From assembly GCA_001303705.1 (NCBI GenBank), contig LJUI01000009.1, positions 1-37,218 of the forward strand: a stretch of DNA of 37,218 nucleotides, read 5' to 3'. Below the pieces are notes generated by a model. It was not told the origin of the DNA. It saw only the letters and a program-made list of their open reading frames with translations, and made no database searches. Origin of the DNA: a candidate division TA06 bacterium SM23_40. Lineage in GTDB: Bacteria > LJUI01 > SM1-40. Within the stretch, counting starts at the first letter, position 1, and each line of letters begins with the position of its first letter. Position numbers and translations under genes: made by a program. Of the stretch, positions 1 to 36,816 are shown piece after piece.

Positions 1-665
1 ATGAGGATATCGTAGCGTCCGCGAATCCTGTGCAGCGCCGCCTCGATCGACGCTACCGGATCAGTGACAACGAGCTCAGGATCATCCGCTTCTACTCTCG
101 GGATCGCTCCGCCGGAGACAAGCCCCAGGATGGCAATGCGCACGCCCCCCACAGGGATACCGAATATGCGGGTAGCGCCGAAACGCTTGATGATCCAGCG
201 CTCGACAAATGGTGTCCGCCTGTCAGCATGGAAGATATTCGTCGACAGGAGAGGAAGTCGGTAGGCATCCCTCATATGGAGGAGGAAGTTACCGCCGAAT
301 GTCAGATCGAAGTGCCCGACGTTGATGGCCGCACACCCGAGAGCGCCGAGCGAGCGAGAGATGTATTCGGCGGCGAGACGCTTCCCCGGATCGTTCGACA
401 GGAATCCTCCCGAATCGACAACGAGGGTGTGGGAGTCTCGCGACGTCCTTTCCAGGACGAAGGTGGCCCTCCGGGCCATCCCGCCGTAGCGGCCGGACCG
501 TCACCCGCAGGGTATGAGGGCGCTCGCCATGTTCCCCGAGTAGAATATTTTCAGGTTCTCTTTTCGTTCCCCCGGCGAGACAGGCCGGCACCCGGCCATG
601 CTGCACGCCACAAACATGGCTCCGGCGATGACCGTGCTCAGGACCCGATTGATGCCTGATATCAT
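1..665 (-). CDS. Putative Sec-containing metallophosphatase-like lipoprotein, 3' end outside window
   Basis: The reading frame runs from ATG 665, which has an AGAGGG ribosome site, through an in-frame TGA at 501-503 to the window edge, giving 221 visible codons. Residues 1-26 form a signal peptide with a lipoprotein-type cysteine (SMAGC, Cys26). The segment FYSGNMASALIPCG leads to the TGA (residue 55), followed by RSGRYGGMARRATFV. The same layout occurs in the paralogue at 3087-4511, where TGA sits at the identical place. From memory, relatives in the 5'-nucleotidase/metallophosphatase superfamily have Cys there (EPCGC then GG..RRAT), so I read TGA as selenocysteine. The nucleotidase metal-site segments look degenerate: INVGHFDLTFG stands where GNHEFD is usual. 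Any C-terminal cytochrome domain would lie outside the window. The alternative is a pseudogene or a sequencing error, but two independent genes with the same TGA argue against it. Confidence 0.75.
464..503 (-). promoter_or_regulatory. In-frame UGA with SECIS-like hairpin (gene 1)
   Basis: The TGA occupies 501-503. Counting from the base after it, bases 23-37 (464-478) form a 6-bp hairpin, TGGCCC-GGA-GGGCCA on the minus strand, whose loop begins with G. Bacterial SECIS elements usually have a short apical loop with G in its first two positions, 16-37 nt after UGA, which fits. A second small hairpin, GCCG-CTA-CGGC, lies at 483-493. The hairpin overlaps the codons for MARRA. Confidence 0.6.
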
Positions 666-3086: not shown

Positions 3087-4511
3087 TCAGTGAGCTACTT
3101 TCCGTCTATCCTCCGGGAAGTCGAATTCGGGATCCCGCTCCTGATTGTGACACCTCACACAGGTGTACATCGTGATTATAGGCAGCTCTGGCATCAACCT
3201 CCCGTCCGGGAGCTTATGTCGCTCGACGCCCTGCTCCCGGTTCAGGAGGTGCCGCATGCCGAAGCCGTGACACGTCTCGCACTGGACGTTGGCCATCTCG
3301 GGCGTGGTGTCTACGCTCCAGTATCCGTTATACTGGCGGAATCCGGTTGTGTGGCATGGCAGACATTCGAACTTCTTCCCTTCGTCCTCTCTCGTGCTGG
3401 ATTCCAGAGATGCATATGCATCGGCGTGTGCCGTCGTCTTCCACTGTTCGTATTGAGCCTGATGACACGAGCCGCAGCGCTCAGCCCCGGCATATACTTC
3501 CTGTACGTTCTCCGGCCTGGGCTGATTGATCTGAGCTTCGTGCAGTCCTTCCTTGTACTCAGCAATGAGTGCAACCATCGTCGAGTCCTCGCCGATCGAC
3601 TCATCGAGCCTCTGGAGCTTGCCCTCCCAGGACGTCACGCGATTCCTCTCATCGAGGTTGAGCAGAAGGTTGCCCTCGTTCTTTCCCTGCCACCCCGGCT
3701 CGACCATGGGGACACCGCTCCGGAGTTCGGGCTCCAAAGTTTGACGAGATGTGCGTCCGCCCACGAGGAGGTCGATGCCCGCCACCAGCTCCACCAGGGA
3801 GTCACACTGGGCCGTCGACATCTGGACGAGCGCGATGATGACATCACACCCATTCGCCTTCAGCGTCTTCATCGCATCACGCGCCGCCTCGTAGGGGTCT
3901 CCAACCATAAGCTTTCGATCATCCTCGGGCTGGGGCGGCATCTGCTGTGGCGGGGTCAACCCGTTCAATCCCAGAATGCCGACGGTCACATCTGGAGCAC
4001 GCCAGAAGAAGAAGCGAGGCCTCCCGAATTTCTTGATGATGAACGGTTCGGCAAAGAGTTCTCCTGTATCTTCATAGTAGACGTTCGCGGACACATAAGG
4101 CAGTCTGTACCTGCTACGGAGATCAGAGAGAAGGCTCGCTCCCAGTACCGTGTCCTTGAACCCGACGTTAATGGCGTCGTACCCGATCATCTTCATCGCC
4201 CGCAGAAGGTACCTGACTTTGATCTGGCTCATCCAGTCGCCCACATGGATGAAGTTCCCGGCGTCGACGATGAGCTGGTACGCATCCCCGCGACTGCTCT
4301 CCCGAATGTAGGTGGCTCTCCGAGCCATCCCGCCGTCACGGCGCCCGTGTCACCCGCACGGCTCCAGGTAATTCATCATGTTCCCGGAGTAGAAGACCTG
4401 GATTCCCTTCTTGGCCTCTCCCCCTTCAGAAGGAGAGCAGGAGAGAAGACCCAATGCCAGCAGCGCTCCGACGACGACTGCCGCACATAAACGTGTGTAG
4501 ATCCGATGCAT
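3087..4511 (-). CDS. Putative Sec-containing metallophosphatase-like / tetraheme cytochrome c554 fusion lipoprotein
   Basis: Reading the single in-frame TGA (4350-4352) as an amino acid gives 474 residues. ATG 4511, preceded by GAGGGTAGG, opens a signal peptide ending in the lipobox LLSC (Cys25). ATG 4550, which overlaps the upstream stop as ATGA, is the alternative start. FYSGNMMNYLEPCG is followed by the TGA (residue 54) and HGRRDGGMARRATYI. Residues 55-320 resemble the 5'-nucleotidase/metallophosphatase fold but lack its usual metal motifs: VDAGNF is kept, while GFKDTVLG and GGRTS replace GNHE-type and GGHTH-type motifs. The C-terminus carries four haem sites, CGSCH 346, CLPCH 383, CETCH 411 and CVRCH 451, in a cytochrome c554-like arrangement. 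It should sit on the cell surface or face the periplasm and transfer electrons. The Sec reading rests on the paralogue at 1-665, the hairpin after TGA, and recalled Cys homologues. Confidence 0.8.
4313..4352 (-). promoter_or_regulatory. In-frame UGA with SECIS-like hairpin (gene 2)
   Basis: The TGA is at 4350-4352. Bases 23-37 after it (4313-4327) form TGGCTC-GGA-GAGCCA on the minus strand, at exactly the spacing seen in the paralogue. The only difference is a T-A pair in place of C-G, made by two synonymous third-position changes (Ala GCT for GCC, Arg AGA for AGG). A second hairpin, CGCCG-TGA-CGGCG, lies at 4331-4343. Its loop TGA is not in the reading frame. Confidence 0.65.
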
Positions 4512-4546: not shown

Positions 4547-5704
4547 TCATTCGACTGCGTGAGTGCGTACTCGCTGCCCTCCTTCGCGACGAGCATCGAT
4601 GTCTGCTCCCTGATGACTACTGTCGATCCCGTACTGCGCGAACAATCTCCCCCACGGCGTCCGCTCAAATTGACGGATGCGCCTGCGCCCAATGGTTGGA
4701 TACCACAGGAGGTCGTGATAGATAGTCGATGCAACCGGCGCCCAAACCCAGAGCGGCGAATGGAGCGCAAGTCGCTTGAGCGGTCGGAGGGACCCCCGCC
4801 TCAGCATCTGGTCGCCACGGATCACCAGGCTCCGCTCACTCCGGAACCCAAGATTGACGTCCTCGATGCTGTCGCCGACGATCTCGACCTGCCGTGGATC
4901 AGCAACGCCCAGCCCGCGTTCCTGGGCCATCGCCAGATAGGGAATGGAGAGTGGGTCGAACCCCATTATCTCCGCTGCGACGGCGTCGATAGCAACCGAA
5001 TCGTTGCTCGCCAGAATAACATTCGCCACAACCGGCCTCATCGTTCGGGGCCCCGCGCCATCGCCCGCGACCGTTCCATCCATGACTGCAAAGATGCCGG
5101 TGTGAAGCTCCCGCTGCATGTACAGCAGATCGACCAGCACCTCGTGAATGAACTCGTGGCCGTAGTGACGAACCTCCTTCAGGAGTCCGCCGAATGCGTT
5201 CTTGATCGCCCCCGTGGTGACCGAGTGTCCGTGTGTCTTCACTGTCGGCAGATGGAGCACGTTCGTCCCGACAAACATCTTCGGGATCTCGATCCCGTCG
5301 GGGAATATCCGGGGTAGCTTCAACAGCGGCGCCTTGAACTCATACCGGATCCATTCCACCTCAGTCAGGGGTATGAAATCGAGGCCGTATCGCTCAAGCA
5401 CCCCCGCCCACTTGTTCTGTCTGGCTCCCTCAATGGGATTGGTGACGACTGTCTTGTTCTCGACGGGCAACAGATGGTCAGGGCTGTACCCATCTTCGAG
5501 CATGGTTCTGACTACACCCTCGAGTTGCCACGGCTGGCTCGAGCAGGCCGGAAAGTAGAGCGTCCACGAGAGGTTGAGTTTGAGGATCGTGTCGTGTTGA
5601 CGGAGAAGAGCCTCGTCGTAGCGAACGAGCCGCATCAACCGGGCATAGTCATCTAGTACAGTCTCTGGCGAAGTGAAGAGCACCCCGACGATTGCGTTTG
5701 CCAT
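4547..5704 (-). CDS. DUF362 family protein
   Basis: The signature HLPTVKTHGHSVTTGAIKN followed by AFGGLL matches DUF362 proteins, whose biochemical role is not settled. Many carry a ferredoxin-like domain; here no CxxCxxC clusters are present. The protein has about 385 residues and no signal peptide. Later segments, NVILASNDSVAIDAVAAEIMG and an Arg-rich C-terminus, also fit the family. I chose ATG 5704; a GTG at 5716 in the same frame is possible, and neither has a strong ribosome site. It is the first gene after the promoter at 5813-5841 and ends in a 4-bp ATGA overlap with an alternative start of the Sec-cytochrome gene, so the two are very likely co-transcribed. Confidence 0.85.
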   Translation of the reverse strand: MANAIVGVLFTSPETVLDDYARLMRLVRYDEALLRQHDTILKLNLSWTLYFPACSSQPWQLEGVVRTMLEDGYSPDHLLPVENKTVVTNPIEGARQNKWAGVLERYGLDFIPLTEVEWIRYEFKAPLLKLPRIFPDGIEIPKMFVGTNVLHLPTVKTHGHSVTTGAIKNAFGGLLKEVRHYGHEFIHEVLVDLLYMQRELHTGIFAVMDGTVAGDGAGPRTMRPVVANVILASNDSVAIDAVAAEIMGFDPLSIPYLAMAQERGLGVADPRQVEIVGDSIEDVNLGFRSERSLVIRGDQMLRRGSLRPLKRLALHSPLWVWAPVASTIYHDLLWYPTIGRRRIRQFERTPWGRLFAQYGIDSSHQGADIDARREGGQRVRTHAVE

Positions 5705-5812
5705 CGAGCATTCCACGGAAAGAGATTACCAGGCCGCGAGCCGCAATCCTCCAGCCGTACCTGCTGAAGACGGCTCTGGCGGCCTAACGTGAAAAAGTCA
5801 CCACGATAGGTG

Positions 5813-5841
5813 AATATAGCATGGCTTTATCGGCCAGTCAA
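5813..5841 (-). promoter_or_regulatory. Sigma70-type promoter for the DUF362 / Sec-protein operon
   Basis: On the minus strand TTGACT (5836-5841), a 17-bp spacer, then TATATT (5813-5818). A transcript would begin near 5806, about 100 nt before the DUF362 start. Just downstream, TCACC-TATCGT-GGTGA followed by CTTTTT (about 5795-5815) could be a weak terminator for the alkaline phosphatase gene or an early leader hairpin. Confidence 0.65.
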
Positions 5842-5876
5842 GCACAAACCCGAGGCCGGAAGCACCTACCAGAGCC

Positions 5877-7322
5877 CTACTTGGTCCTCTCTCTGGTCCT
5901 GTACTTCCTTCCGGACTCGGAGCCGTCTCCCCACGGGAACCCGAGCCGATGCTCGTGTTTCAGGTCCATCACCTGGAAGAGGAGGCGGCCGACCTCGGAG
6001 ACATGGTGAATACCGCGAAACCGTTCTGCTCGCGGCCCCGTGCCGAAGATAAGAACGGGCGTGGCGGTATGATCCGAACTCGCCCAGGTGACCTGCATGC
6101 TCGGGCCAACGGCCCACCCCAGGAGGTTGGATCTGGATGCCCCGAAGAAGGGCCTCTCCTCCAGCTCTGCGGCCCATGTCGCCTGCGCGATCCCGATATC
6201 GAGACCGTTCACGTCCAGGATGATCTGTCTGATCGCCTCGGCGGTCAGCGAGTCCCGCTCCCACGCCGCGCGCGCAAACGACGACGTCTGACTCCCGAGC
6301 AGCGCGAGACGATCAGAACCACCATAGCCTGTCTGATAGTCACTGCCGTCCCCGCCATTCGGCGGTGCCGGTGACACCCCCATGCCCCCCGTCTCGTGGT
6401 CTGCGGTGACGAGGAGGAGCGTGCCCCGGTGCCGATCCGCGTATGCCAGGGCCACTCCGACAGCCTCGTCGAACGCAAGGAGCCCGCGGAGAGTTGTTCC
6501 CGCGTCGTTGTCGTGGCAGGCATGGTCAATACGACCGCCCTCGACTACGAGGAAGAATCCCTCCCGGTCGCAGTCAAGCCGCGCCAGTGCCGCCTCGGTC
6601 ATCTCGGCGAGACTCGGTTCATCCGTCCCGGCTCGGTCGATCTCGTACGCCATATGGCCCTCGGCGAAGAGCCCCAGCACCTTATCGCACCGGCTGAGAT
6701 CGAGTTCGCGCAGTTCTTCGGCTGTCCGCACCACCGTATACCCGAGCATTGCTGCCGTATCGACGAGACCCTCGAAATGGCGGCTCCCCCCTCCCAGCAG
6801 GACGTCGATCCTATTGCGTACCAGTTCATGGCGTGCGATTACATCTTCGGTGTTCCGCGACAGAGAGTGCGCGGCGAACGCGGCTGGCGTGGCGTGGGTC
6901 AATCTGGTCGTCGTGACAAGTCCAACTGCCTTGCGCGCCGCATGGGCCCGCTCCAACACCGTCACCACGTCCCCCCCATCCTCGCTCCACGAGATAACCC
7001 CATTCTCGTAGATCCTTCCCGTAGCCAGAGCGGATGCAGACGCTGCCGAATCAGTCACTAGTGCGCCCAGCGGATTGGTCGTCATATACCCCGTGTTTCC
7101 TCGCTGCGCCAACTTCTCCATGTTCGCGGGCTCGCCCTTCACCAGGCGAAGATAATCGAGAACGAGCCCGACCTGCGCCGGCCCCATTCCGTCGCCTATC
7201 ATCAGTATCACCCGCCGTGCCTGCCCGCCAGCCCAACTCCACGAAACGAGGAGTGCGGCGACGAGGAGGACAACGAGGCAAGATTGCACTATCCTCATCG
7301 GTCCTGCATTACCTCTGGCCAT
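5877..7322 (-). CDS. phoA: Exported alkaline phosphatase (PhoA superfamily)
   Basis: Hydrolyses phosphate monoesters outside the cytoplasm. The family's catalytic landmarks are all visible: MIGDGMG (metal Asp), VTDSAASASALATG (nucleophile Ser at about residue 92), VEGGRIDHACHDND (metal Glu, Asp and His), TADHETGG and SSDHTATPV. A signal peptide lies near the N-terminus (about residues 9-31, ending SWSWA). I chose ATG 7322 because GGGAGGA lies 9 nt upstream; ATG 7298 would start directly at the signal peptide, and the longer frame to 7382 is less likely. The length of 481 residues is typical. It follows the TPR/transglutaminase gene by about 120 bp on the same strand. No clear promoter of its own and no Pho box were recognised. 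Confidence 0.92.
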   Translation of the reverse strand: MARGNAGPMRIVQSCLVVLLVAALLVSWSWAGGQARRVILMIGDGMGPAQVGLVLDYLRLVKGEPANMEKLAQRGNTGYMTTNPLGALVTDSAASASALATGRIYENGVISWSEDGGDVVTVLERAHAARKAVGLVTTTRLTHATPAAFAAHSLSRNTEDVIARHELVRNRIDVLLGGGSRHFEGLVDTAAMLGYTVVRTAEELRELDLSRCDKVLGLFAEGHMAYEIDRAGTDEPSLAEMTEAALARLDCDREGFFLVVEGGRIDHACHDNDAGTTLRGLLAFDEAVGVALAYADRHRGTLLLVTADHETGGMGVSPAPPNGGDGSDYQTGYGGSDRLALLGSQTSSFARAAWERDSLTAEAIRQIILDVNGLDIGIAQATWAAELEERPFFGASRSNLLGWAVGPSMQVTWASSDHTATPVLIFGTGPRAERFRGIHHVSEVGRLLFQVMDLKHEHRLGFPWGDGSESGRKYRTRERTK

Positions 7323-7443
7323 TGGACTTCGTCCTCCCTCCATATACTCCTCGGCCATGCGCCCGCCGAGGAGGAGCGTCACATTCCCGCCTCACCGGCC
7401 GGCCCCGCACCAACCGGACGTACTCAGCAACCTTATCGGGGTA

Positions 7444-17067: not shown

Positions 17068-19995
17068 CTACTTCAGCATAACCATCTTCCGTACGAGCGA
17101 CCGCGAGCCAGCCTCAAGTCGGTACAAGTATATCCCCGAGGAAACACGAGCACCACGGTCGTTCCGTCCGTCCCAGTGGACCGTATACACCCCCGCATCC
17201 TGGGGCTCATTCATCAGCTCGCGAACGAGCTGACCGGCGATGTTGTACACACGCAGACAGACCCGCTCGCCTCCCCTCGGAAGCGCATATGAGATCGTGG
17301 TCGACGGGCTGAACGGATTCGGATAATTCTGATTTAGCATGAAGGCATGCGGCCGCTCAGGATCGAACGGCGGCTCCTCGCTCACCTCAGTCACCAGCGC
17401 CAGCCACGTGAGCACCGAATCCATGAGCTCTGCCTTATGCATCGTCACCGGTGACGAGTCGTCAATCCATCCGAAGTCGAACCCGAAATAGATAAGCCTG
17501 TGACCCGTCGCCCCCGGACCGACCGAATCGACGTATGTGAGTGCAGCAACACCTCCGTCGATATCCAGATAGACGAGCCCTGTGTCCGCCCCGGCAAGCG
17601 GCTCGATCACGTCCTTCGATAGCTCCTGACAGACGAGTACGGTGTCGCCCAGGGGGCTGCCGGGCACACCCTCCAGCACATAGTTCGATGTCGTGCCCGA
17701 TACCAGATCAGCGTGCAGACGATCTGAGTAGAACGGCCAGGCACTGATCTCCTCACCGACGTTCGCTCCCGTGATGAACAGGCCGCCGCCGCCATCGAGG
17801 AACGCACCCAGCGCGAGAGTATCATCAGCAGTGACTGTACTCGTCGTCGCATCTCCCGTCAGCCAGACGACGATCGTGAACTTCGACAGCAAGACGTCAT
17901 CGGGAGACCCCTCTGTCTCCACCTCGTGCTCATCCCAGAGGAAGTTCTCGCGGTCGCCAAAGACCTGCTGGAAGGGCTCTTCATTGTCATCGCCGCCATC
18001 GTCATCGACCAGGAGAACATCAGGCCTCCCGATCCGCTGGACGAAGCTGTCTGTCTCGGCATAACCACCCGCTGCCGTCATGGCGAGATGGAACGTGATA
18101 TCCTCGCACTCTGCACCAGGAGCGACCTCGAACGCAAACGGATCGTCGAACGTCACCGTCGCATTGTGCAGCACCGGCAGAGCACGTGAGGCCATCGAAT
18201 CGGTGATCGTCACTGACGACGGGTTGCTCGAGTGGAGCGTCGCAGCGAACGAGTCTGCTTGCGCCCCCTGGTTCCTGACTGTCACCCAGAGATCGACAGC
18301 CTCACCAGGATCGGGGCGTTCATCTCCATTCCCGGACGAGTCATCGATCGTGTGATCGACATAGGAGATCAGCGGCTCCGCTGTGCCGAACCCTGTGAAT
18401 CCCCAGGCCTCACCCCAACACCACGTCCGCACGAAGTCGTTCCCGAGCTCACCCCGGCCATCCCCGCTCCAGTACCCCCAGCTGTTCTGGAAATAGAACA
18501 CACTATCCGGAGTACTGAACCCGACGAAGTCCCAGGCGTGGCCGCCGCGCGAGGTACAGAGTTCACACGGGTTACACAGACACCCATAACTCGACCAGCC
18601 ATCGCACCCGGGCTGGCCCTCACAGACACCTGATGCCGTGAGGAGGATGCCGTGATGGTACAGCGCGTCGCGCAGCCCGACCAGATCGAAAGTGTTCTGT
18701 ATGAAGAACGACGCAAGGAGGAAGTCATCTCCGCACGGCCCCTCGACGTCGGGGCAATCTCCTATGCATAACCCACTGCCACCGTTCGACATCGGACACC
18801 CCGGGTTGCAGCCGTACGGGGAGCACTCCTCCGTGCAGATACCGTCGATCGTGAGTAACTGGGGGGCATAGGAAGGCGAAGACCCCTCGCAGAACCCGAG
18901 CGGACAGGTGCCGCACTGAGCCCCGCTCGTCACGAGAGAGGAGAGGCAGGCTCCACCCTGCCCCGGGCAGCCGAATCCGCACCATCCCATGCGGCAGTCG
19001 GACCACCCGAGAACGCGCAGATGGTCATAGGCATTCTGCCGGCTGAGGACGGGCTCGATACAGACGCAGGAACCGTCCCCGTCCTTCTCGCAGAGACAGT
19101 CGTACAGCTCCGAGTCGCCGGTCCCCAGGTAGCAGAGACTGCCGCACAGCCACCAGTCGGCAACCGAGGAAACCGCATGGCCGGTGCACGATCCGTAGCT
19201 CCCCTGGTTCTTGATCGGCGGCATCACCGAGAGGGAAAACGCGGGAGGAGGCTGCATCGGGCTCTGCCACAACGAGGATGGCGTGGGCGCCCACTTCGCC
19301 TGCTCGTCCGCAAGCTGCTCATGGTCAGGACTGAGCAACGACCGAAGCGGCTGTTCCACAGGCGCCCGGGTCAGAAGCCGCGGATCGAGGCCATCCGGAG
19401 CGAGAATCGAGCTGACATCTGCACGGACCACATCGCCGTCCCGCGGTGAGGCCAGATAGAGGAGGTACCCATCCTCCTGGGAGAGTACGACCAGACGGGC
19501 CTCATCGCCGAACTCCTCGCCGGTCCACATCGATGCCACGGACTCCATCTCCTCCCAATCGCTGGCATCTATCTCATAGATCGGACGTCCGCCAGGACCC
19601 CAGTTCGGCGTGCCCACTGCCCTGCCGCTATACGGATCGAACTTGATGAACCCGCCGATAATGTCGCCCCTCTGGAGCGGGACCGCCCAGTACTTCGGCC
19701 CGACAGGACTGCAGAAAAGACGCGGCTTCCCCGCTCGGGCTCCGCTATAGAGAGCGAATAGCTCCTGCTGGATGATATCGCGCGGGTTCTGCGCCAGCAG
19801 GTGCTCGGCCCTCATGGCCCGCTCGGCGACATAGTCCTCCGCGATCGCCGCCATCTCGTCCGCTGAGAGCACCCCCTCTCCCAACTCGCCGAGCCACATC
19901 ACCTCGCTGCGAAACGGCTCGCGTGCTCCCTCTGCGCCAAGAGCACAACAGAATAGAATCAACAGACTCATCCCGACGGTCATTCTCGCTCTCAT
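17068..19995 (-). CDS. Secreted papain-like (C1A) cysteine peptidase, paralogue 1
   Basis: 975 residues from ATG 19995, chosen for its AAAGGAG site and because it makes all four paralogues 973-976 long. Signal peptide 1-24, then a conserved N-terminal region (25-250) that may act as a propeptide. The peptidase domain has Gln264 and catalytic Cys270 in IKNQGSYGSCTGHA, His486 in RGGHAWDFVGF and Asn504 in YFQNSWGYW. Tyr replaces the papain Cys that normally bonds just before the active site. Between Cys270 and His486 lie about 26 cysteines, far more than in papain. Residues about 545-655 look like a CARDB-type beta domain. Residues 659-870 (VLLVDDDGG, LDGGGGLFITGAN) resemble a glutamine-amidotransferase-like fold without a recognisable active site. 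Residues 888-975 form the FlgD/Por-type sorting domain. The substrate is not known. Confidence 0.88.
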   Translation of the reverse strand: MRARMTVGMSLLILFCCALGAEGAREPFRSEVMWLGELGEGVLSADEMAAIAEDYVAERAMRAEHLLAQNPRDIIQQELFALYSGARAGKPRLFCSPVGPKYWAVPLQRGDIIGGFIKFDPYSGRAVGTPNWGPGGRPIYEIDASDWEEMESVASMWTGEEFGDEARLVVLSQEDGYLLYLASPRDGDVVRADVSSILAPDGLDPRLLTRAPVEQPLRSLLSPDHEQLADEQAKWAPTPSSLWQSPMQPPPAFSLSVMPPIKNQGSYGSCTGHAVSSVADWWLCGSLCYLGTGDSELYDCLCEKDGDGSCVCIEPVLSRQNAYDHLRVLGWSDCRMGWCGFGCPGQGGACLSSLVTSGAQCGTCPLGFCEGSSPSYAPQLLTIDGICTEECSPYGCNPGCPMSNGGSGLCIGDCPDVEGPCGDDFLLASFFIQNTFDLVGLRDALYHHGILLTASGVCEGQPGCDGWSSYGCLCNPCELCTSRGGHAWDFVGFSTPDSVFYFQNSWGYWSGDGRGELGNDFVRTWCWGEAWGFTGFGTAEPLISYVDHTIDDSSGNGDERPDPGEAVDLWVTVRNQGAQADSFAATLHSSNPSSVTITDSMASRALPVLHNATVTFDDPFAFEVAPGAECEDITFHLAMTAAGGYAETDSFVQRIGRPDVLLVDDDGGDDNEEPFQQVFGDRENFLWDEHEVETEGSPDDVLLSKFTIVVWLTGDATTSTVTADDTLALGAFLDGGGGLFITGANVGEEISAWPFYSDRLHADLVSGTTSNYVLEGVPGSPLGDTVLVCQELSKDVIEPLAGADTGLVYLDIDGGVAALTYVDSVGPGATGHRLIYFGFDFGWIDDSSPVTMHKAELMDSVLTWLALVTEVSEEPPFDPERPHAFMLNQNYPNPFSPSTTISYALPRGGERVCLRVYNIAGQLVRELMNEPQDAGVYTVHWDGRNDRGARVSSGIYLYRLEAGSRSLVRKMVMLK

Positions 19996-20084
19996 CGCAG
20001 GTTTCTCCTTTCCCGTCTCCGTAGACCTATCGAGTTCTCGGAAGTAGCCATGCACGCCGCCGCCCCAAATCCTGGAATCCCTCC

Positions 20085-20101
20085 GGCCTCTCCGTGAGGC
20101 C
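20085..20101 (-). other. Leader hairpin of peptidase paralogue 1
   Basis: GGCCT-CACGGAG-AGGCC, 5-bp stem, in the 5' leader about 90 nt before the start codon and downstream of the terminator-like hairpin at 20116-20149. Confidence 0.35.
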
Positions 20102-20115
20102 GAAGCCAGGGGCAG

Positions 20116-20149
20116 AAAAAATGGGCAGGGAGCACCTCAGCCCCTACCC
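20116..20149 (-). terminator. Terminator-like hairpin inside the leader of peptidase paralogue 1
   Basis: Minus strand stem GGGTAGGGGC, loop TGAGGT, stem GCTCCCTGCCC (one bulge, one G-U pair), then A and six T. It has the form of an intrinsic terminator, yet it lies between the promoter at 20232-20262 and the start at 19995, where it could attenuate transcription. Gene 2 already has its own terminator at 20624-20658, so this one is not needed to end that transcript. Confidence 0.6.
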
Positions 20150-20198
20150 CATAGGTGTCAGATTGAAGAAAGACTGGCCGCGCCCGAATCGGCCAATA

Positions 20199-20229
20199 CC
20201 CCACCCCCACCCTACCCTCCCCAACCCCC
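20199..20229 (-). other. G-quadruplex motif at the predicted transcription start
   Basis: Six G-tracts on the minus strand, of 5, 4, 3, 3, 5 and 4 G, separated by loops of 1 or 2 bases. This is a textbook quadruplex-forming pattern. It sits at or just after the predicted start of the peptidase 1 transcript. Confidence 0.75.
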
Positions 20230-20231
20230 TT

Positions 20232-20262
20232 ATCATACTAACCCCCGGCACGCTACTGTCAA
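20232..20262 (-). promoter_or_regulatory. Promoter of peptidase paralogue 1
   Basis: Minus strand TTGACA (20257-20262). The -10 could be TAGTAT (20235-20240, 16-bp spacer) or TATGAT (20232-20237, 19-bp spacer). Confidence 0.55.
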
Positions 20263-20623
20263 GTCCCGGGTCGGCCGCACCCGGAGAGCCGCTTTCCCCG
20301 TAGGCTCGTCCAAACAGAGGATCCCCTGGGGGACTGGCCCTCAGGATGACACAGATCCCCGCAGCCCGTACACTGAGCCCGAAAACCGAGGATCGAGGGA
20401 GACCGTGACCCCGCCTATTATGGGACCCGCGACAGAATGAGTACCGGCACCCCACCCCTGCCCGTTGAGGATCGAAGAAGTGAAGGGACAGACGTCACCC
20501 AATCCCTCCCCACGGAGCAGAGCCGAAGAGAGAATACATCGGGTCAACATACCCCTACCCACGAGGCAGAGCCGGACATGTGGATCCGTACCGGTCACCA
20601 TACCCTTATGCAAACAGCAGCGC
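20263..20623. other. Intergenic stretch, nothing recognised
   Basis: Short frames only, without ribosome sites or family resemblance. It lies between the terminator of paralogue 2 and the promoter of paralogue 1. Confidence 0.5.
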
Positions 20624-20658
20624 AAAAAGAACGGGTAGGGAGATCGAACTCCCTACCC
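20624..20658 (-). terminator. Terminator of peptidase paralogue 2
   Basis: Perfect 10-bp stem on the minus strand, GGGTAGGGAG-TTCGAT-CTCCCTACCC, followed by GTTCTTTTTG. About 70 nt after the stop at 20727. Confidence 0.85.
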
Positions 20659-20726
20659 ATTGAGTGAACCAGTGGCCGTAGCCCGTATGTTGACGCGCTT
20701 GCGGTGGCGTCGCCCACGCCCTCGTT

Positions 20727-23648
20727 CTACTTCAGCATCACCATCTTCCGTACCAGCGACCGCGAGCCAGCTTCAAGGCGATAGAAATACACTCCTGAGG
20801 AGACCCGAGACCCACGGTCATTTCGTCCGTCCCAGTGGACCATATAGGCTCCTGCCTCCTGCGGCTCGTCGACGAGCTCACGGACGAGCTGGCCTGCGAT
20901 GTTGTAGACACGCAGGCACACCCGCTCACCGTTGCTGGGAAGCGCATACGAAATCGCCGTCGATGGACTGAACGGATTCGGATGGTTCTGCTTCAGCATG
21001 AAGACATGGGGACGCTCAGGATCGAACGGCGGCTCCTCGGTCACCTCAGTCACCAGCATCAGCCAGGTGAGAATCGAATCCATCAGCTCGGGTTTGTGCA
21101 TCGCTATCGGCGACTGATCATCGATCCAGCCGAAATCGAACCCGAAGTACACGAGCCGGTGACCCGTTGCCCCGGGACCCACCGAATCGACATAAGTTAT
21201 GGCCGCCACCCCGCCGTCCATGTCCAGATAGATGAGAGCCGTATCAGCCTCCGCAAGCGGCTCGATCACATCTTTCGATGACTGCTCACAGATCAAGAAC
21301 GTGTCACACAGAGCGCTCGTCGGCACACCGTCCAGCACATAGTTCGCCGTCGTGCCTGATACAAACCCGGCGTGGAGACGATCCGAGTAGAATGGCCAGC
21401 TGTTGATCTCCTCACCGATGTTGGCACCCGTGAGGAAGAGGCCGCCGCCTCCATCGAGAAACGAACCAAGAACAACCGTATCAGCGGCAGTGACCGTGTT
21501 GGCCGTCGCATCTCCTGTCAGCCAGACGATGATCGGAAACTTCGACAGCAGAACTTCATCGGGAGATCCCTCTGTCTCCACCTCATGTTCATCCCAGAGG
21601 AAGTCCACGCGCCCCTCGAATACCTCCTGAAACGCCTCCTCGTTATCCGCTCCGCCGTCGTCGTCGACGAGGAGCACATCAGGCCTGCCGATCCGCTGTA
21701 CAAAGCTATCGGTCTCGGCATAGCCGCCCGCCGCGGTCATGGCGAGGTAGAAGGTAATATCCTCACACTCCGCACCAGGAGCAACCTCGAAGGCGAACGG
21801 ATCGTCGAAGGCCGCCGACCAGTTGTGGAGCACCGGCAGCGCACGCGATGCCGTGGCATCGGTGATATTGACCGCCGACGGATTGCTGCAGGAGAGCGTT
21901 GCCTGTAGCGAGTCGGCCTGGGCACCTATATTCCTCACCGTGGCCCAGAGCTCGACTGTCTCCCCGGGATCCGGCCTCCCGTCGTTGTTCCCCGAGGAAT
22001 CGTCGATCGTGTGCTCATCATAATAGAGCTTGGGCTCAGTCGGAGTGAACCCCCAGAAGAGATACGCCGCAGTTCCGCACCACCGCCGCACATAGCTATT
22101 GCCAAGCTCACCACGGCCGTCGCCGCCCCAGTACCCCCAGCTGTTCTGGAAGTAGAACAGGCTATCCGGCGCATTATACCCGACCAAGTCCCAAGCGTGC
22201 CCCCCGCTTGGCCCACACGAAACGCACGGATCACACAGACAGCCATAACTCCCCCAGCCATCACATCCAGCCTGTGCGCCGTTACATACAGTGCTGCTGG
22301 CGAGGAGGATCCCGTGATGATAAATGGCATCCCGCAATCCCGGGATATCGTCTGTCGACTGTGTCGCATATCCCTGGAGGAGAAAGTCGTCGCCGCATGG
22401 CCCTTCGACGTCAGGGCAGTCCCCGGTGCACTGACCGCTCCCGCCGTTCGACATGGCACATCCCGGATCACATCCGTAATGAACGCACTCCTCCGTACAC
22501 AGCCCGTCGAGCACGAAGATCGGACCTGCGTACTGCGGCGAGGAACCCTCGCACCGGTCGCAGGTGCCGCACTCGACGCCGCTGGTCACAAGCGAGCTGA
22601 GACACGACCCTCCTACGCCCGGACAGCCCGGCTCACACAGCCCCTGACGGCAGTCAGCATTGCCAAGGTACCGAAGGCGGTCATAGGCATTCTGTCGGCT
22701 CAGTACCGGATCGACGCAGACACACGCACCGTCCGAATCCTTCTCACAGAGACAGTCATATAGCTCGGAGTCGCCTGTCCCCATGTAACAGAGACTGCCG
22801 CACAGCCACCAGTCGCCGCACGATGAGGTTGCGTGCCCTGTGCATGATCCGTACCCACCCTGATCCTTGATCGGCGGCATCACGGTCAGAGAAAAGACGT
22901 CCGGCTGCATCGAACCCCGCCGTGACGGTGGAGTCTCCGGGACCTGACGAACCTGCTCTTGCCCCATCGGTCCCTGGTCCAGGCCGAGTGACGATCGAAG
23001 AGATCGCTCCACTGGCGCCGTTGCCAACAGCCGCGGATCGAGACCCGTGGGAGCGAGGATCGAACTGACGTCAGCTCGCACGACCCCATCGCCGCTCGGC
23101 GACGCAAGGTAGACCAGGTACCCATCCTCTTGCTCCAGGATAACCACCCGTGTCTCGCCGCCGAACCGCTCTCCAGTCCACGCCGATGCGAACGACTCCA
23201 TCTCATCCCATTGACGACCGTCAATCGAATAGAGAGGCTCACCGCCCGCTCCCCAATTGGGAGTCCCCACTGCTTTTCCACTATACGGATCAAACTTGAT
23301 AAATCCCCCTATCGTATCTCCTCGCTGAAGTGGCACCGCCCAGTACTTCGGGCTGAGTGCGGTGAAGAAGAGCCGCGGCTTTCCTGCCCTGGCTCCGTTG
23401 TACAGATTGAATAGCTCGCTCTGGATGATGTCGCGTGGATTGGCCGCCAAAAGACGCCTGGCCTTCACAGCCCGTTCCTCGATATACTGCTGCGCCACTG
23501 CGGCGATTTCCTCGGTCGATAGCGCACCGTCATGGAGCTCGCCGAGCGACATCACCTCGGTGCGAAACGGTTCCCGTGCCCCCTGGGCACCTAAGGCACA
23601 ACAGAGGAGGATGAGCACGCTCACCCCGATGGCCATCCTGGTCCTCAT
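20727..23648 (-). CDS. Secreted papain-like (C1A) cysteine peptidase, paralogue 2
   Basis: 973 residues. ATG 23648 has AAAGGAG 9 nt further up, a site nearly identical to that of paralogue 1. Signal peptide 1-23. Catalytic set: Gln263 and Cys269 (IKDQGGYGSCTGHA), His484 (SGGHAWDLVGY) and Asn502 (YFQNSWGYW). Differences from its sisters: an extra cysteine at 277 (SSCGDWW), a shorter cysteine-rich segment around GTCDRCEGSS, and NGAQAGCDGW instead of EGQPGCDGW. The downstream beta, VLLVDDDGG and sorting domains are nearly identical to the other copies, while the stretch before the active site (about 210-250) differs most. It is transcribed from 23802-23830 and ended at 20624-20658, so it forms its own unit. 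Confidence 0.88.
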   Translation of the reverse strand: MRTRMAIGVSVLILLCCALGAQGAREPFRTEVMSLGELHDGALSTEEIAAVAQQYIEERAVKARRLLAANPRDIIQSELFNLYNGARAGKPRLFFTALSPKYWAVPLQRGDTIGGFIKFDPYSGKAVGTPNWGAGGEPLYSIDGRQWDEMESFASAWTGERFGGETRVVILEQEDGYLVYLASPSGDGVVRADVSSILAPTGLDPRLLATAPVERSLRSSLGLDQGPMGQEQVRQVPETPPSRRGSMQPDVFSLTVMPPIKDQGGYGSCTGHATSSCGDWWLCGSLCYMGTGDSELYDCLCEKDSDGACVCVDPVLSRQNAYDRLRYLGNADCRQGLCEPGCPGVGGSCLSSLVTSGVECGTCDRCEGSSPQYAGPIFVLDGLCTEECVHYGCDPGCAMSNGGSGQCTGDCPDVEGPCGDDFLLQGYATQSTDDIPGLRDAIYHHGILLASSTVCNGAQAGCDGWGSYGCLCDPCVSCGPSGGHAWDLVGYNAPDSLFYFQNSWGYWGGDGRGELGNSYVRRWCGTAAYLFWGFTPTEPKLYYDEHTIDDSSGNNDGRPDPGETVELWATVRNIGAQADSLQATLSCSNPSAVNITDATASRALPVLHNWSAAFDDPFAFEVAPGAECEDITFYLAMTAAGGYAETDSFVQRIGRPDVLLVDDDGGADNEEAFQEVFEGRVDFLWDEHEVETEGSPDEVLLSKFPIIVWLTGDATANTVTAADTVVLGSFLDGGGGLFLTGANIGEEINSWPFYSDRLHAGFVSGTTANYVLDGVPTSALCDTFLICEQSSKDVIEPLAEADTALIYLDMDGGVAAITYVDSVGPGATGHRLVYFGFDFGWIDDQSPIAMHKPELMDSILTWLMLVTEVTEEPPFDPERPHVFMLKQNHPNPFSPSTAISYALPSNGERVCLRVYNIAGQLVRELVDEPQEAGAYMVHWDGRNDRGSRVSSGVYFYRLEAGSRSLVRKMVMLK

Positions 23649-23740
23649 CGCATGTCTCTCCTTTCTCCTGCCCGCAAACCTGTAAGAACTCCCGTCGCGA
23701 AGATGTAAGTGACTTCGTCATCGACGCTAACAAGAAACAA

Positions 23741-23791
23741 GCAGACCCATCCACCACCCCTTCGCCACTGGTCCTTGCCCGGGATCTGCCC
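23741..23791 (-). ncRNA. Structured 5' leader element, peptidase paralogue 2
   Basis: Right after the predicted transcript start, minus-strand GCAGATCC (23782-23789) can pair with GGGTCTGC (23741-23748), closing a loop of about 33 nt. The first part (23773-23791) is almost identical to 27096-27115 in the leader of paralogue 3. Possible regulatory RNA; the fold is by eye. Confidence 0.35.
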
Positions 23792-23801
23792 TCTCCTGCC
23801 T

Positions 23802-23830
23802 AGCTTACCGGATCCGCCTGCGATTGTCAA
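23802..23830 (-). promoter_or_regulatory. Promoter of peptidase paralogue 2
   Basis: Minus strand TTGACA (23825-23830), a 17-bp spacer and TAAGCT (23802-23807). The -10 is weak in its middle. The transcript would start near 23795. Confidence 0.55.
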
Positions 23831-23959
23831 CCATAATGAGCCACAAAAACTGAGAAAAAGTCCACACCTATCTGTTTCGGCAGCGACGGCTGCATCCATT
23901 TACAACACCGTAACTTCCGCCCCAGTTCCCCAGTACCGCCGGGACCGGACCGGGATCAT

Positions 23960-23981
23960 CCCTGGCGAGATCCGGCCAGGG
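23960..23981. repeat. Inverted repeat upstream of the paralogue 2 promoter
   Basis: CCCTGGC-GAGATCCG-GCCAGGG, 7-bp arms, about 130 bp upstream of the promoter. There is no T-tract, so it could be an operator-like site. The surrounding 23831-24030 holds no gene I can support. Confidence 0.4.
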
Positions 23982-24030
23982 CAGATAGCCCCAGAACATG
24001 AATGGGCAACGCCCCGGATGCGGCGAGGGG

Positions 24031-24051
24031 AAAACCGGGCCTTGTCGGCCC
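24031..24051 (-). terminator. Terminator of peptidase paralogue 3
   Basis: Minus strand GGGCC-GACAA-GGCCC, then GG and four T, three bases after the stop at 24055. The T-tract is short. Confidence 0.5.
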
Positions 24052-24054
24052 CCC

Positions 24055-26982
24055 TCACTTCAGCATTACCATCTTGCGCGCCAGCGAACGCGAGCCAGCC
24101 TCAAGGCGGTAGAAATAGACCCCTGAGGAGACTTGAGACCCACGGCCATTTCGCCCATCCCAGCGGACCGTATACATTCCCGCATCGTGTGGCTGGTCGA
24201 CGAGCTCACGGACGAGCTGGCCCGCGATGTTGTAGACACGCAGGCAGACCTGCTCACCGCTGCTGGGAACCGCATACGAAATCACCGTCGACCCGCCAAA
24301 CGGATTGGGGGAGTTCTGCTTCAACAAGAAGACATGCGGACGCTCGGGATCGAACGGCGGCTCCTCGCTCACACCCGTCACCAGCATCAGCCATGTGAGC
24401 ACCGAATCCATCAACTCCGGCTTGTGCATCGCCACCGGCGACTGGTCATCGATCCACCCGAAGTCGAAGCCGAAGTACACCATCCGGTGACCGGTCGCAC
24501 CCCGCCCTACCGAATCGACATAGGTGATGGCCGCCACCCCGCCGTCCATGTCCAGATAGATGAGCGCCGTATCCGCCTCGGCAAGCGGCTCGATCACATC
24601 CTTCGACGGCTCTTCGCAGATGAGGAGCGTGTCACACAGAGCGCTCGTCGGCACACCGTCGAGCACATAGTTGGCCGTCGTCCCCGAGACAAACCCGGCG
24701 TGCAGCCGATCCGAGTAGAACGGCCAGCCGCTGATCTCCTCACCGATGTTTGCTCCCGTGAGGAAGAGGCCGCCGCCGCCATCCAGAAACGCACCAAGCG
24801 CGAGCGTATCGTCGGCAGTCACCGTGTTCGCCGTCGCGTCACCCGTCAGCCAGACCACAAGAGGATACCTCGACAGCAGCGCCCCATCGGGAGATCCCTC
24901 AGTCTCCACCTCGTGCTCATCCCAGAGGAAGTCCTCGCGATCCCCGAATACCTGCTGGAACGGCTCCTCGTTGATCGCCCCGCCGTCATCGTCCACGAGC
25001 AGCACATCCGGTCTGCCGATCCGCTGGACGAAGCTGTCGGTCTCTGCGTAGCCGCCCGCCGCCGTTATGGCGAGGTAGAACGTGATGTCCTCGCACTCCG
25101 CACCGGGATCGACCTCGAAGACGAAGGGATCATGGAAGGACGCCGTCTGGTTGTGGAGGAGGGGCAACTGACGTGATGCAGTAGAGTCGGTGATGATCAC
25201 AGCAGAAGGATTGCTCGATGAGAGTGTGGCCTCGACCGAATCGGCCTGCACGCCGGCGTTCTTGACCGTGACCCACAATTCGATCGTCTCTCCCGGATCA
25301 GGCCTGCCGTCGGCATTGCCAGATGAATCATCAACCGCATGCGCCATGTAGAATATCCTGGGTATCGTCGCATTGTATCCCTCGAATCCCCATGTCTCAC
25401 CGTAGCACCACCGCCGTATGAAGCTATTCCCCAGCTCGCCCCTGCCGTCGCCGCTCCAATATCCCCAGCTATTCTGGAAGTAGAAGAGGCTGTCGGGAGC
25501 GTTGTACCCGACGAGGTCCCAGGCGTGGCCCCCACGCGACGTGCACGCCTCGCACGGATCGCACAGGCATCCATAGCTTGACCAACCATCGCACCCCGGC
25601 TGTCCCAGGCAGACCCCGGAAGCTGCCAGGATGATACCATGATGATAGATGGCCTCCCGCAGCCCGGGTAGATCGTTTGTCGACTGGATGAAGTATGACC
25701 GGAGCACGAAGTCATCACCACAGTCTCCCGCCACATCCGGGCAGACGTCCGTACACTGCCCGCTCCCGCCGTTCGAGAGCGCACAGCCGGGATCGCACCC
25801 ATATGAGGCGCACTCTTCGGTGCAGAGACCATCGTTCAGGAATATATGTGGAGCATACACGGGATCTGACCCCTCGCAGTACCCGTACGGACAGGTCCCA
25901 CACTCGACTCCGCTCGTCACGAGGGAGCTGAGACAGGCACCACCCTGCCCGGGGCATCCCCCTGCGCACAGCCCCTGGCGGCAGTCGGCACCGCCCAGGT
26001 AGCGCAATCGATCATAAGCATTCTGCCGGCTCAGGATCGGATCGATGCACTCACACGAACCGTCCGGATCCTTCTCACAGAGACAGTCATACAGCTCTGA
26101 ATCGCCCGTGCCCAGATAACAGATGCTCCCGCAGAGCCACCAGTCCCCGACAGAAGAGACGGCATGGCCGGTGCACGATCCGTACCCTCCCTGATTCTTG
26201 ATCGGGGGCATTACCGAGAGCGAGAAGACATCGGGAGGTTGCATCGCGCCCTGCCACAGAGACAGGAGAGCAGGCGCGGTCTCCGCCTGCTCGTCAGCTC
26301 GCCGTTGGTGGTCAGGGCTGAGCAGCGAGCGAAGCGGCCGCTCGGCCGGCGCCTTCGTCAACAGCCGCGGATCGAGGCCGGTCGGTGCGAGAATCGAACT
26401 GACATCCGCCCTGACCACATCGTCGCCCCGCGGCGACGCCAGGTACAATAGATGCCCGTCCTCCTGCATCAGAACCAGGAGACGGGTCTCATCTCCGAAC
26501 CGCTCGCCCGTCCACAGGGTGGCGATCGACTCCATCTCCTCCCACTGACGAGCATCTATCGAATAGAGCGGTCGGCCACCTGCACCCCAGTTCGGAGTGC
26601 CCACCGCCTTCCCACTGTACGGATCGAACTTTATGAACCCGCCTATCGTGCCTCCTCTCTGTAGCGGCACAGCCCAGTACTTCGGACCCAGCTGGCTGAA
26701 GAAGAGCCGCGGTTTTCCTGCCCTGGCCCCGTCATACAGATTGAATATCTCGTTCTGAATAATGTCGCGCGGATCACCCGCCAACAGGCGCTCGGCCTTC
26801 AGCGCCCGCTCCTCGATATAGCGCTGCGCAACCCAAGCCATCTCGTCAGCCGACATCACCCCCTCCTGGAGCTCGCCGAGCCAGGTCACCTCGGCACGAA
26901 ACGGCTGCCGCGCTGCCTGAGCCCCCAGAGCATAACAGAACAGGATGAGCACCATCACCCATGCGGTCCACCTGGCATTCAT
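24055..26982 (-). CDS. Secreted papain-like (C1A) cysteine peptidase, paralogue 3
   Basis: 975 residues from ATG 26982, which follows AGGGGGGAT; the frame to 27051 would bury the signal peptide (WTAWVMVLILFCYALGAQA). Catalytic residues align with paralogue 1: Gln and Cys270 in IKNQGGYGSCTGHA, His in RGGHAWDLVGY and Asn in YFQNSWGYW. The cysteine-rich insertion is conserved, with small changes such as SCECIDPIL and CAGGCPGQGG. The C-terminal sorting domain begins KQNSPNPFGGSTVISYAVP. Promoter at 27125-27153 with a structured leader, and terminator directly after the stop, so it can be expressed separately from its neighbours. Confidence 0.88.
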   Translation of the reverse strand: MNARWTAWVMVLILFCYALGAQAARQPFRAEVTWLGELQEGVMSADEMAWVAQRYIEERALKAERLLAGDPRDIIQNEIFNLYDGARAGKPRLFFSQLGPKYWAVPLQRGGTIGGFIKFDPYSGKAVGTPNWGAGGRPLYSIDARQWEEMESIATLWTGERFGDETRLLVLMQEDGHLLYLASPRGDDVVRADVSSILAPTGLDPRLLTKAPAERPLRSLLSPDHQRRADEQAETAPALLSLWQGAMQPPDVFSLSVMPPIKNQGGYGSCTGHAVSSVGDWWLCGSICYLGTGDSELYDCLCEKDPDGSCECIDPILSRQNAYDRLRYLGGADCRQGLCAGGCPGQGGACLSSLVTSGVECGTCPYGYCEGSDPVYAPHIFLNDGLCTEECASYGCDPGCALSNGGSGQCTDVCPDVAGDCGDDFVLRSYFIQSTNDLPGLREAIYHHGIILAASGVCLGQPGCDGWSSYGCLCDPCEACTSRGGHAWDLVGYNAPDSLFYFQNSWGYWSGDGRGELGNSFIRRWCYGETWGFEGYNATIPRIFYMAHAVDDSSGNADGRPDPGETIELWVTVKNAGVQADSVEATLSSSNPSAVIITDSTASRQLPLLHNQTASFHDPFVFEVDPGAECEDITFYLAITAAGGYAETDSFVQRIGRPDVLLVDDDGGAINEEPFQQVFGDREDFLWDEHEVETEGSPDGALLSRYPLVVWLTGDATANTVTADDTLALGAFLDGGGGLFLTGANIGEEISGWPFYSDRLHAGFVSGTTANYVLDGVPTSALCDTLLICEEPSKDVIEPLAEADTALIYLDMDGGVAAITYVDSVGRGATGHRMVYFGFDFGWIDDQSPVAMHKPELMDSVLTWLMLVTGVSEEPPFDPERPHVFLLKQNSPNPFGGSTVISYAVPSSGEQVCLRVYNIAGQLVRELVDQPHDAGMYTVRWDGRNGRGSQVSSGVYFYRLEAGSRSLARKMVMLK

Positions 26983-27058
26983 GGTTGCGATCCCCCCTAT
27001 ACTCCCGAAGACCCTGTTTGAGGATGCAGTATGCAACATCGATCCCTCCACAAGACCA

Positions 27059-27120
27059 GCAAGGGCAGATCCGTCAGCTGCCGCTCACGCGGGTACCTCT
27101 GCCCGGGACCTGCCCCTTGC
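27059..27120 (-). ncRNA. Structured 5' leader, peptidase paralogue 3
   Basis: The predicted transcript begins with GCAAGGGGCAG (27110-27120), which pairs with CTGCCCTTGC (27059-27068), a 10-bp stem with one bulged G. It encloses 41 nt that contain a CCGC-GTGA-GCGG hairpin with a GNRA loop. The arrangement resembles a riboswitch or protein-binding leader, but no known class was recognised. 27096-27115 matches 23773-23791 of paralogue 2. Confidence 0.4.
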
Positions 27121-27124
27121 CTCG

Positions 27125-27153
27125 ATATTATCGAATAGACGCTGAGGTGTCAA
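27125..27153 (-). promoter_or_regulatory. Promoter of peptidase paralogue 3
   Basis: Minus strand TTGACA (27148-27153), a 17-bp spacer and TAATAT (27125-27130), one of the best matches to consensus in the window. Start expected near 27118. Confidence 0.75.
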
Positions 27154-27184
27154 GCCTTGTGAGCCAACAAGCGGCGCGAGGCGC

Positions 27185-30115: not shown

Positions 30116-30154
30116 CACTGCCACCCCCTCGTATAGTGTGTGTGAAATGCCAAT

Positions 30155-31401: not shown

Positions 31402-31968
31402 CTATTTTCCCTTTTCTTTCTTCTCTTCCTGCGCCTCTTCTCCCGTCTCCTTCTCGATCATATGGATCCCTTCGGGACTGGCCACGTATTCTTCATAGTC
31501 GAAGCCCGTGAATTCAGGACTTCGCTCGTTATGGCACTTCACGCACACCTCCGGCCCCGGAGGGATGATTAGCCCCTTTGAGATGGCCAGTTCTCGATCC
31601 TTCATCACCGACGCGTTCCAGTAGTTGCTCCCCGCTCCGTGACACGCCTCACATTGCACGTTCACCATCTGCGGGGTACTCTCCAGATCGACGAACCCGC
31701 CCTCCTCTCCGTACCCGGTGGTGTGACAAGAGAGACACATCTTATTAGCCTTCGCCTCGTCGTCCAGGCTGTCGATGGCGTGGGCATGGACCGTCTTCTC
31801 CCACGCAGCGAAGATATCGGAGTGGCACATCTTGCATTTCTTCTGACCGACGTAAGTCGCTGGTGCTTCCTCTTCCTCGGCTTGCTCAGCAACAAGACCG
31901 CCCCAAGCAACAAGGCAGAGGCCAACAGCCAGCACGACAGCCAGATACCTCAACAGAGCAGCGTGCAC
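31402..31968 (-). CDS. Exported tetraheme cytochrome c554-like protein
   Basis: 188 residues with a signal peptide (about 1-27) and four haem sites: CKMCH, CLSCH, CEACH and CVKCH. The spacing and the segments TVHAHAIDSL, CHTTGYGEEGG and TPQMVNVQCEACHGAG closely parallel the C-terminal domain of the Sec-candidate protein at 3087-4511, so it is a stand-alone version of the same electron-transfer module. A charged Glu/Lys tail ends the protein. The start is GTG 31968 with a weak ribosome site, under the strong promoter at 32005-32033. It probably accepts or donates electrons in the periplasm; the partner could be the large cytochrome encoded just upstream. Confidence 0.9.
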   Translation of the reverse strand: MHAALLRYLAVVLAVGLCLVAWGGLVAEQAEEEEAPATYVGQKKCKMCHSDIFAAWEKTVHAHAIDSLDDEAKANKMCLSCHTTGYGEEGGFVDLESTPQMVNVQCEACHGAGSNYWNASVMKDRELAISKGLIIPPGPEVCVKCHNERSPEFTGFDYEEYVASPEGIHMIEKETGEEAQEEKKEKGK

Positions 31969-34887: not shown

Positions 34888-35325
34888 CTATTCAGCTTTC
34901 TCCTTCTCAGCCTTCTCGATCTCGCCCTTGAGCCAGGGCTCGATGGTGCCGCCGTGGAAGAGGATGCCCAACTCGTCGTCGAGAGCAGAGGGTTCTAGCT
35001 TCATCACCCACCCTTTGCCGTACGGATCCTGATTGAGCAGGAGCGGATTGTCCTCGAGGGCTTCGTTGATCTCGGCGATCTCGCCGCTCAACGGCGCGAC
35101 GAGCTTACCCACCCACTTCGACGACTGGACCTTGCCGCAGGTCTCCCCCTGCTCGACATCATCTCCCTCATCGGGAAGATCGACGTATGTCGTATCGCCG
35201 GCCAGCTTGAAGTAGAACTCGTTGATCCCCACAGTCACCGTGCCATCATCGTTCTTGCGTGCCCAGGCATGGTCGGCATGGTAGTACAGCTCGTCCGGCA
35301 TGTTGTATCCAAGAATGTCAGCCAT
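34888..35325 (-). CDS. GcvH-like lipoyl-carrier protein
   Basis: 145 residues from ATG 35325, with AGGAGG 6 nt upstream; ATG 35343 is possible but weaker. It resembles glycine cleavage H protein: HAWARKNDDGTVTVGINEF at the N-terminus, and the lipoyl site VQSSKWVGKLVAPLSGEI, where Lys70 sits eight residues before the conserved AP as in GcvH. The C-terminal third (WVMKLEPSALDDELGILFHG) also fits. No P or T protein genes are near, and it lies 52 bp after hdrB, so a role as a dedicated lipoyl carrier for the Hdr-like complex, like the LbpA proteins of sulfur-oxidising Hdr systems, is more likely than glycine cleavage. A highly charged Lys/Glu tail ends it. Confidence 0.85.
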   Translation of the reverse strand: MADILGYNMPDELYYHADHAWARKNDDGTVTVGINEFYFKLAGDTTYVDLPDEGDDVEQGETCGKVQSSKWVGKLVAPLSGEIAEINEALEDNPLLLNQDPYGKGWVMKLEPSALDDELGILFHGGTIEPWLKGEIEKAEKEKAE

Positions 35326-35377
35326 CCTGACCCTCCTCTCCATCCCTTTGGGACGACGTCGTCACACACCTTCTCCG

Positions 35378-36250: not shown

Positions 36251-36816
36251 CAGATCGCTCCCTCCTCGTTCTTGATTCTATTCAGGATCGTACGGACGCG
36301 GAATCCCCGCCGCCACCCACTGGGGAGAAGGGAGAGCTTTCCTTTCCGGAACATCGTCAGCCCCAACCCTATGTCCTTGAAGAAGTCGCGAGTCGCAAGC
36401 TTGAGCCGCCCGATAAGCCCGATCTCGTACAGGCGGCCGAAGTTCTTGACCGTGAACAGCGCGGATCGATAGAATGCTGCTGCTTCCGGTACCTTCGGCT
36501 TGATACCCTCGCGCAGAGCGACGCGGCGTGCGGCGTCCATGATCTTGACGATCTCCACGTCCTGGGGACAGCGCGTCGAACACGTCTTGCACGCCGCGCA
36601 GATCCAGATCGTCTTACTCCCCAGCACGAGATCCTTCTGCCCCAGACGTACCGCATGCATGATCTCGGCAGGCGTGTAGTCCATCTCGTACGCGACCGGA
36701 CAGCCGGCAGCGCACTTTCGGCACTGGTAGCAGTTATTGACGAGGCTCTTCGCCTCGCCGAGAACCTCATTGACAAAGGGCGATTCTATTACGTCGCGCG
36801 AAAGCTGAATCTCCAT
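36250..36816 (-). CDS. hdrC: Heterodisulfide reductase subunit C-like ferredoxin protein
   Basis: 188 residues with two [4Fe-4S] motifs, CYQCRKCAAGCP (about 29-40) and CAACKTCSTRCP (about 73-84), the usual HdrC pattern that passes electrons to HdrB. The C-terminal half is basic and helical (LKLATRDFFKDIGLGL), as in other HdrC proteins. ATG 36816 with GGGAG 7 nt upstream. No HdrA flavoprotein is in the window; it could lie beyond the right edge. Confidence 0.92.
   Translation of the reverse strand: MEIQLSRDVIESPFVNEVLGEAKSLVNNCYQCRKCAAGCPVAYEMDYTPAEIMHAVRLGQKDLVLGSKTIWICAACKTCSTRCPQDVEIVKIMDAARRVALREGIKPKVPEAAAFYRSALFTVKNFGRLYEIGLIGRLKLATRDFFKDIGLGLTMFRKGKLSLLPSGWRRGFRVRTILNRIKNEEGAI

Follow-up and report, generated by a model that had tools for sequence, protein, structure and literature searches.

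A probable UshA-like tetrahaem selenoprotein with a degenerate phosphatase site in a candidate division TA06 bacterium

UshA-like selenoproteins with a CxU motif were described from ocean metagenomes in 2008, with 76 sequences carrying selenocysteine (Sec) and 92 carrying Cys (PMC2398784), and a 2026 review lists them with the family NF041198 (PMC13188914), for which a further citation is PMC9312934. A second group, NF049981 or 'UshA-like (seleno)protein family 2', has the motif CxxU (PMC13188914). We found no biochemical characterisation of the UshA-like CxU type, and the passages of these papers that deal with it contain no description of a haem domain or of a loss of metal ligands. The NF041198 profile itself is informative on the first point: its positions 1–272 correspond to the UshA-like domain and its positions 344–519 to a tetrahaem domain, of which 344–518 match the cytochrome half of the protein reported here. 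Because the profile already includes the haem part, the fusion of Sec to haems, which a preliminary description of this locus had considered unusual, is not in itself new; as far as the consulted passages go, it belongs to a catalogued type (NF041198, CxU; PMC2398784, PMC13188914) for which a tetrahaem domain is the usual architecture.

We analysed a window of 37,218 nucleotides from a draft genome of a candidate division TA06 bacterium (189 contigs, 89.8% completeness, 1.3% contamination). The target gene and its features are as follows.

3087 to 4511, minus strand: putative UshA-like selenoprotein gene, 474 residues plus a TGA stop (3089–3087), with Sec predicted at codon 54
4437 to 4511, minus strand: predicted signal peptide and lipobox candidate LLSC (Cys25), from sequence
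4350 to 4352, minus strand: in-frame UGA, TGA codon 54, predicted Sec54, with Cys52 two residues earlier (CxU)
4313 to 4327, minus strand: apical stem-loop of 6 bp with loop GGA, +23 to +37 nt after the UGA, a putative bacterial SECIS element
3639 to 4403, minus strand: 5'-nucleotidase/UshA-like domain (metallophosphatase fold) with its metal ligands gone, from profile matches and a ligand alignment
3117 to 3494, minus strand: tetrahaem cytochrome c554-like domain with four CXXCH motifs, from profile matches

Read from 4511 to 3087 on the minus strand, which the preliminary description had left unstated, and with the TGA taken as a residue, the gene gives a single unbroken protein of 474 residues with an ATG start, and apart from codon 54 the frame contains no other in-frame stop or frameshift. 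The motif at codon 54 is EPCG-U-HGRRDGGMARRAT, in which EPCG-U-H is followed further on by GGMARRAT. One continuous match to NF041198 covers residues 21–291 and runs across codon 54. Since both sides of the TGA match a single profile, the unshifted read-through frame that had been noticed at 4350–4352 is confirmed. After codon 54 come four CXXCH motifs in the order CGSCH, CLPCH, CETCH and CVRCH, and Pfam places a cytochrome c554 domain at residues 346–416. Signal peptides direct export and CXXCH motifs attach haem, and because both are present here the protein would be exported and carry haems; it is probably also lipid-anchored. The four CXXCH motifs and the export signal that mark a multihaem c-type cytochrome of the c554 type are thus both found in the sequence, which bears out the exported tetrahaem fusion proposed earlier. 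The TGA could instead be a true stop, giving a short peptide followed by a restart at the ATG of GGM, and an open reading frame of 413 residues with its ATG at 4328 (3087–4328) does exist. The restart product would lack a signal peptide, and its four CXXCH motifs could then not mature outside the cytoplasm. This possibility is highly improbable in our judgement, also in view of the relatives, the Sec machinery and the hairpin described below.

We found all four components of selenocysteine synthesis and insertion in the genome, as the proposed selenoprotein reading called for. The genes selA (557.9 bits) and selB (391.9 bits) are adjacent on one contig. A tRNA-Sec gene (selC) with anticodon UCA lies on another contig, shortly upstream of selD. 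The selD gene (L051, about 427–1470, contig C58) can be read only through an in-frame TGA at the usual active-site position, CAG-U-ASKVG, and read in this way it scores 380.7 bits to TIGR00476. It is itself a selenoprotein gene, and because it needs its own TGA read through, it serves as an internal positive control for Sec decoding. Between the contigs with the sel genes and the window, G+C (0.61) and tetranucleotide make-up (r 0.93–0.95) agree, so that a common genome is very probable. Reassignment or misreading of UGA, for example as Trp or Cys, would also leave the frame open, and the open frame is all that we found in its favour. A changed code does not explain it, in line with the earlier judgement: elsewhere in the window TGA terminates genes and Trp is encoded by TGG. 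The genome also contains the complete Sec machinery, and we give next to no credence to reassignment.

The target is accompanied in the window by a second gene of the same kind.

3 to 665, minus strand: second UshA-like selenoprotein gene (putative), 38% identical to the target, ended by the contig edge, with a signal peptide and a TGA at the target's column
501 to 503, minus strand: in-frame UGA (predicted Sec) of the second gene, motif IPCG-U-RSGRYGGMARRAT
464 to 478, minus strand: SECIS-like hairpin of the second gene, from comparison with the target hairpin

This gene, which the preliminary description does not mention, surfaced when the genome was searched with the target protein; a separate genome_contigs scan with the whole target protein returned two cytochrome-only relatives and nothing else. 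We also compared the codon-54 column across relatives, which were the best-scoring loci fetched from other genomes, so that the counts are not unbiased frequencies: 35 distinct sequences, including both window genes, have TGA in this column and 20 have a Cys codon. Relatives with Cys at this position, as the preliminary description had proposed, are thus confirmed. Four CXXCH motifs are present in 30 of the 35 TGA forms, and two of the remaining five end at a contig or locus edge; some Sec forms have no haem domain. In one phylum a match was found in 80 of 80 genomes, many of them flagged with a single internal TGA. In a tree of these sequences the two window genes are sisters (99/86), and the clade around them takes in one Sec form and one Cys form of other genomes (98/94), which places a Cys member inside the target's clade; the target groups with the divergent members L037 and L039. 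A sequencing error or gene decay could be suspected in a draft assembly of 189 contigs and 89.8% completeness. The recurrence of TGA at one column, in the second window gene and in dozens of independent genomes, excludes chance or sequencing error in practice, and the target shows no further in-frame stop or frameshift that would suggest decay, which makes this explanation extremely improbable. In every one of the 35 TGA forms, the two window genes among them, the conserved strand and PCGU motif come ahead of the TGA, which also speaks against a true stop.

A bacterial SECIS element is expected as a hairpin just 3' of the UGA with a G at the start of its loop, and the target has such a hairpin at +23 to +37, where a check for SECIS had been advised. 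All Sec forms except two can fold a common hairpin in the GG-ARRA codons, with a loop that is mostly GGA or GGC. The two exceptions, L020 and L023, are Sec forms without haems and have a different hairpin a few bases nearer the UGA; their loop, GTCT or GGTCTG, presumably resembles that of E. coli fdhF. Two pairs at third codon positions are always paired in the 30 distinct Sec sequences (30/30, perfect covariation), with G-C, G-U, U-A and U-G used at one and C-G and U-A at the other. Between the target and the second gene, one of these pairs changes from U-A to C-G, a compensatory exchange in which both changes are silent. Of the 35 Sec forms 33 retain both pairs, as against 1 of the 20 Cys forms; these counts are strong, although the sequences are not independent and some neighbouring residues are different in the Cys forms. 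None of 2,000 shuffles matched the observed hairpin pairing, a count that is not a probability because the sequences are related. We assessed the SECIS by covariation and by presence or absence across relatives in place of folding energy. By folding energy, Sec forms could not be told from Cys forms, and the known UGA of selD did not stand out either: after synonymous-codon randomisation, the share of sequences as stable as the native one was 31% for the target gene, 11% for its paralogue and 19% for selD. An Rfam search of the window at the gathering threshold gave no matches. Since the hairpin covaries at synonymous positions within the GG-ARRA codons, it separates Sec from Cys forms, a point absent from the passages of the papers cited above. 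A true stop would leave both this covarying hairpin and the sel machinery unexplained. Together, these data give us high confidence that the target is a real selenoprotein in which the codon-54 UGA would be read as Sec.

We next consider the N-terminal domain, which had been called metallophosphatase-like. The fold is indeed homologous, whereas all nine metal or catalytic ligand positions checked are substituted. The canonical 5'-nucleotidase of the same genome keeps 9 of 9 (DxH, GD, GNHxxxD, TH and GHxH) and the target 0 of 9, with N, M, N, F, K, L, Q, R and S in their place; these positions come from one MAFFT alignment of divergent sequences, in which single columns may be off. At the level of motifs the loss can be read directly in the target sequence (YSGNMMN, DAGN, VGFKDT, VQMS and GGRTS). 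Other family members vary in the number of ligands kept, and none of those aligned here keeps all nine. The CxU motif lies directly behind the strand on which DxH would be expected. Because all nine positions are substituted, the domain is, as judged from its residues, a pseudo-phosphatase with a 5'-nucleotidase fold and no metal site; the passages of the cited papers do not mention a degenerate site. Sec could be real and the domain still have phosphatase or nucleotidase activity; alternatively, Cys/Sec could bind a metal instead of forming a redox pair. The clear homology to 5'-nucleotidases, an alkaline phosphatase gene nearby (5877–7382) and a Cys relative, L055, in which the first ligand site still reads DxH are consistent with such a function, but the substitution of all nine ligand positions, the tetrahaem fusion and the CxU spacing point to electron transfer, and we regard it as unlikely.

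The target is most likely an exported redox protein in which Cys52 and Sec54 would exchange electrons with the haems. SelB and tRNA-Sec would decode the codon-54 UGA as Sec, directed by the hairpin that lies within the reading frame 23–37 nt downstream. The resulting Cys52-Gly-Sec54 would sit at the remnant of the active site, in the loop after the first strand; there the selenol/thiol pair may act as a redox centre that trades electrons with the fused tetrahaem domain of c554 type. This domain could in turn pass electrons to or from further cytochromes in the periplasm or at the surface. That Sec and haem are redox-coupled at all, with the electron flow that this implies, has in our view about an even chance; the Sec forms that lack a haem domain speak against it. 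An AlphaFold2 model of the target built from a five-sequence alignment had a pLDDT of 41, too poor for Sec–haem distances. More tentatively, and with slightly less confidence than in the coupling itself, we propose that a phosphatase fold lost its metal centre and became an exported oxidoreductase, with Cys-Gly-Sec wired to a tetrahaem domain, in many bacterial phyla. To our knowledge, no member of such a type has been characterised. Electron exchange between Sec and haem, if it occurs, would make the protein an unusual redox enzyme outside the cytoplasm.

The surroundings of the target contain several further genes. A gene for an FG-GAP repeat protein with a FlgD-Ig-like tail (881–2944) lies between the two selenoprotein genes. 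Directly upstream of the target, on the same strand, are a DUF362 gene and the alkaline phosphatase gene (together 4547–7382, minus strand). Four large genes in a row (17068–30124, minus strand), each encoding about 970–1,000 residues and a FlgD-Ig-like C-terminal domain, are probably tandem duplicates; one of them also matches a type IX secretion tail. At 31402–31968 on the minus strand lies a gene for a separate multihaem cytochrome with 40% identity to the target's cytochrome half; it adjoins that of a large NapC/NrfH-type multihaem cytochrome (32355–34535). At 34888–36816, again on the minus strand, a gene for a GcvH-like lipoyl protein stands beside HdrB- and HdrC-like genes, an arrangement that we take to recall lipoate-linked Hdr-like sulfur pathways.

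Compared with known systems, the target shares its fold with 5'-nucleotidase/UshA/CD73 and SoxB proteins over about 200–280 residues (phmmer 1.7e-9 to the 5'-nucleotidase PDB 5h7w; 8.6e-9 to the SoxB profile), but its ligands are substituted, a CxU motif is added and a tetrahaem domain replaces the C-terminal nucleotidase domain. The tetrahaem domain resembles Nitrosomonas cytochrome c554 (PDB 1bvb, PF13435; phmmer 1.1e-11, Pfam 4.3e-19) and, unlike it, is fused to a predicted Sec-containing pseudo-phosphatase. The multihaem cytochrome ExtKL (NF040886) is likewise a catalogued selenoprotein with multiple c-haems, but it belongs to a different family (13.9 bits, cut-off 250). NF049981 shows a weak likeness around the Sec motif (E 2.5e-9; 37 bits, cut-off 140), and its profile of only 262 positions leaves little room for a haem domain. 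The nearest family is NF041198, UshA_like_PCGU, 'UshA-like (seleno)protein' (COG0737 UshA-like, CxU; E 1.3e-74), which has in common with the target the PCG[U/C]...GG-ARRA motif, the UshA-like domain and the exchange of Sec and Cys in one column. The target scores 251.7 bits against the curated cut-off of 275, 23 bits short. Many other TGA-bearing four-haem relatives also fell below this cut-off in the genome searches, which suggests that it is strict. The target differs from NF041198 in this lower score, in its grouping with divergent members of the tree and in the loss of all nine ligands checked. Judged by its motif, hairpin and architecture, which are the same, the target is a divergent relative of NF041198 and not a certified equivalog. 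Together with its nearby paralogue, it adds a bacterial lineage that has been little sampled to the range of a known selenoprotein type.
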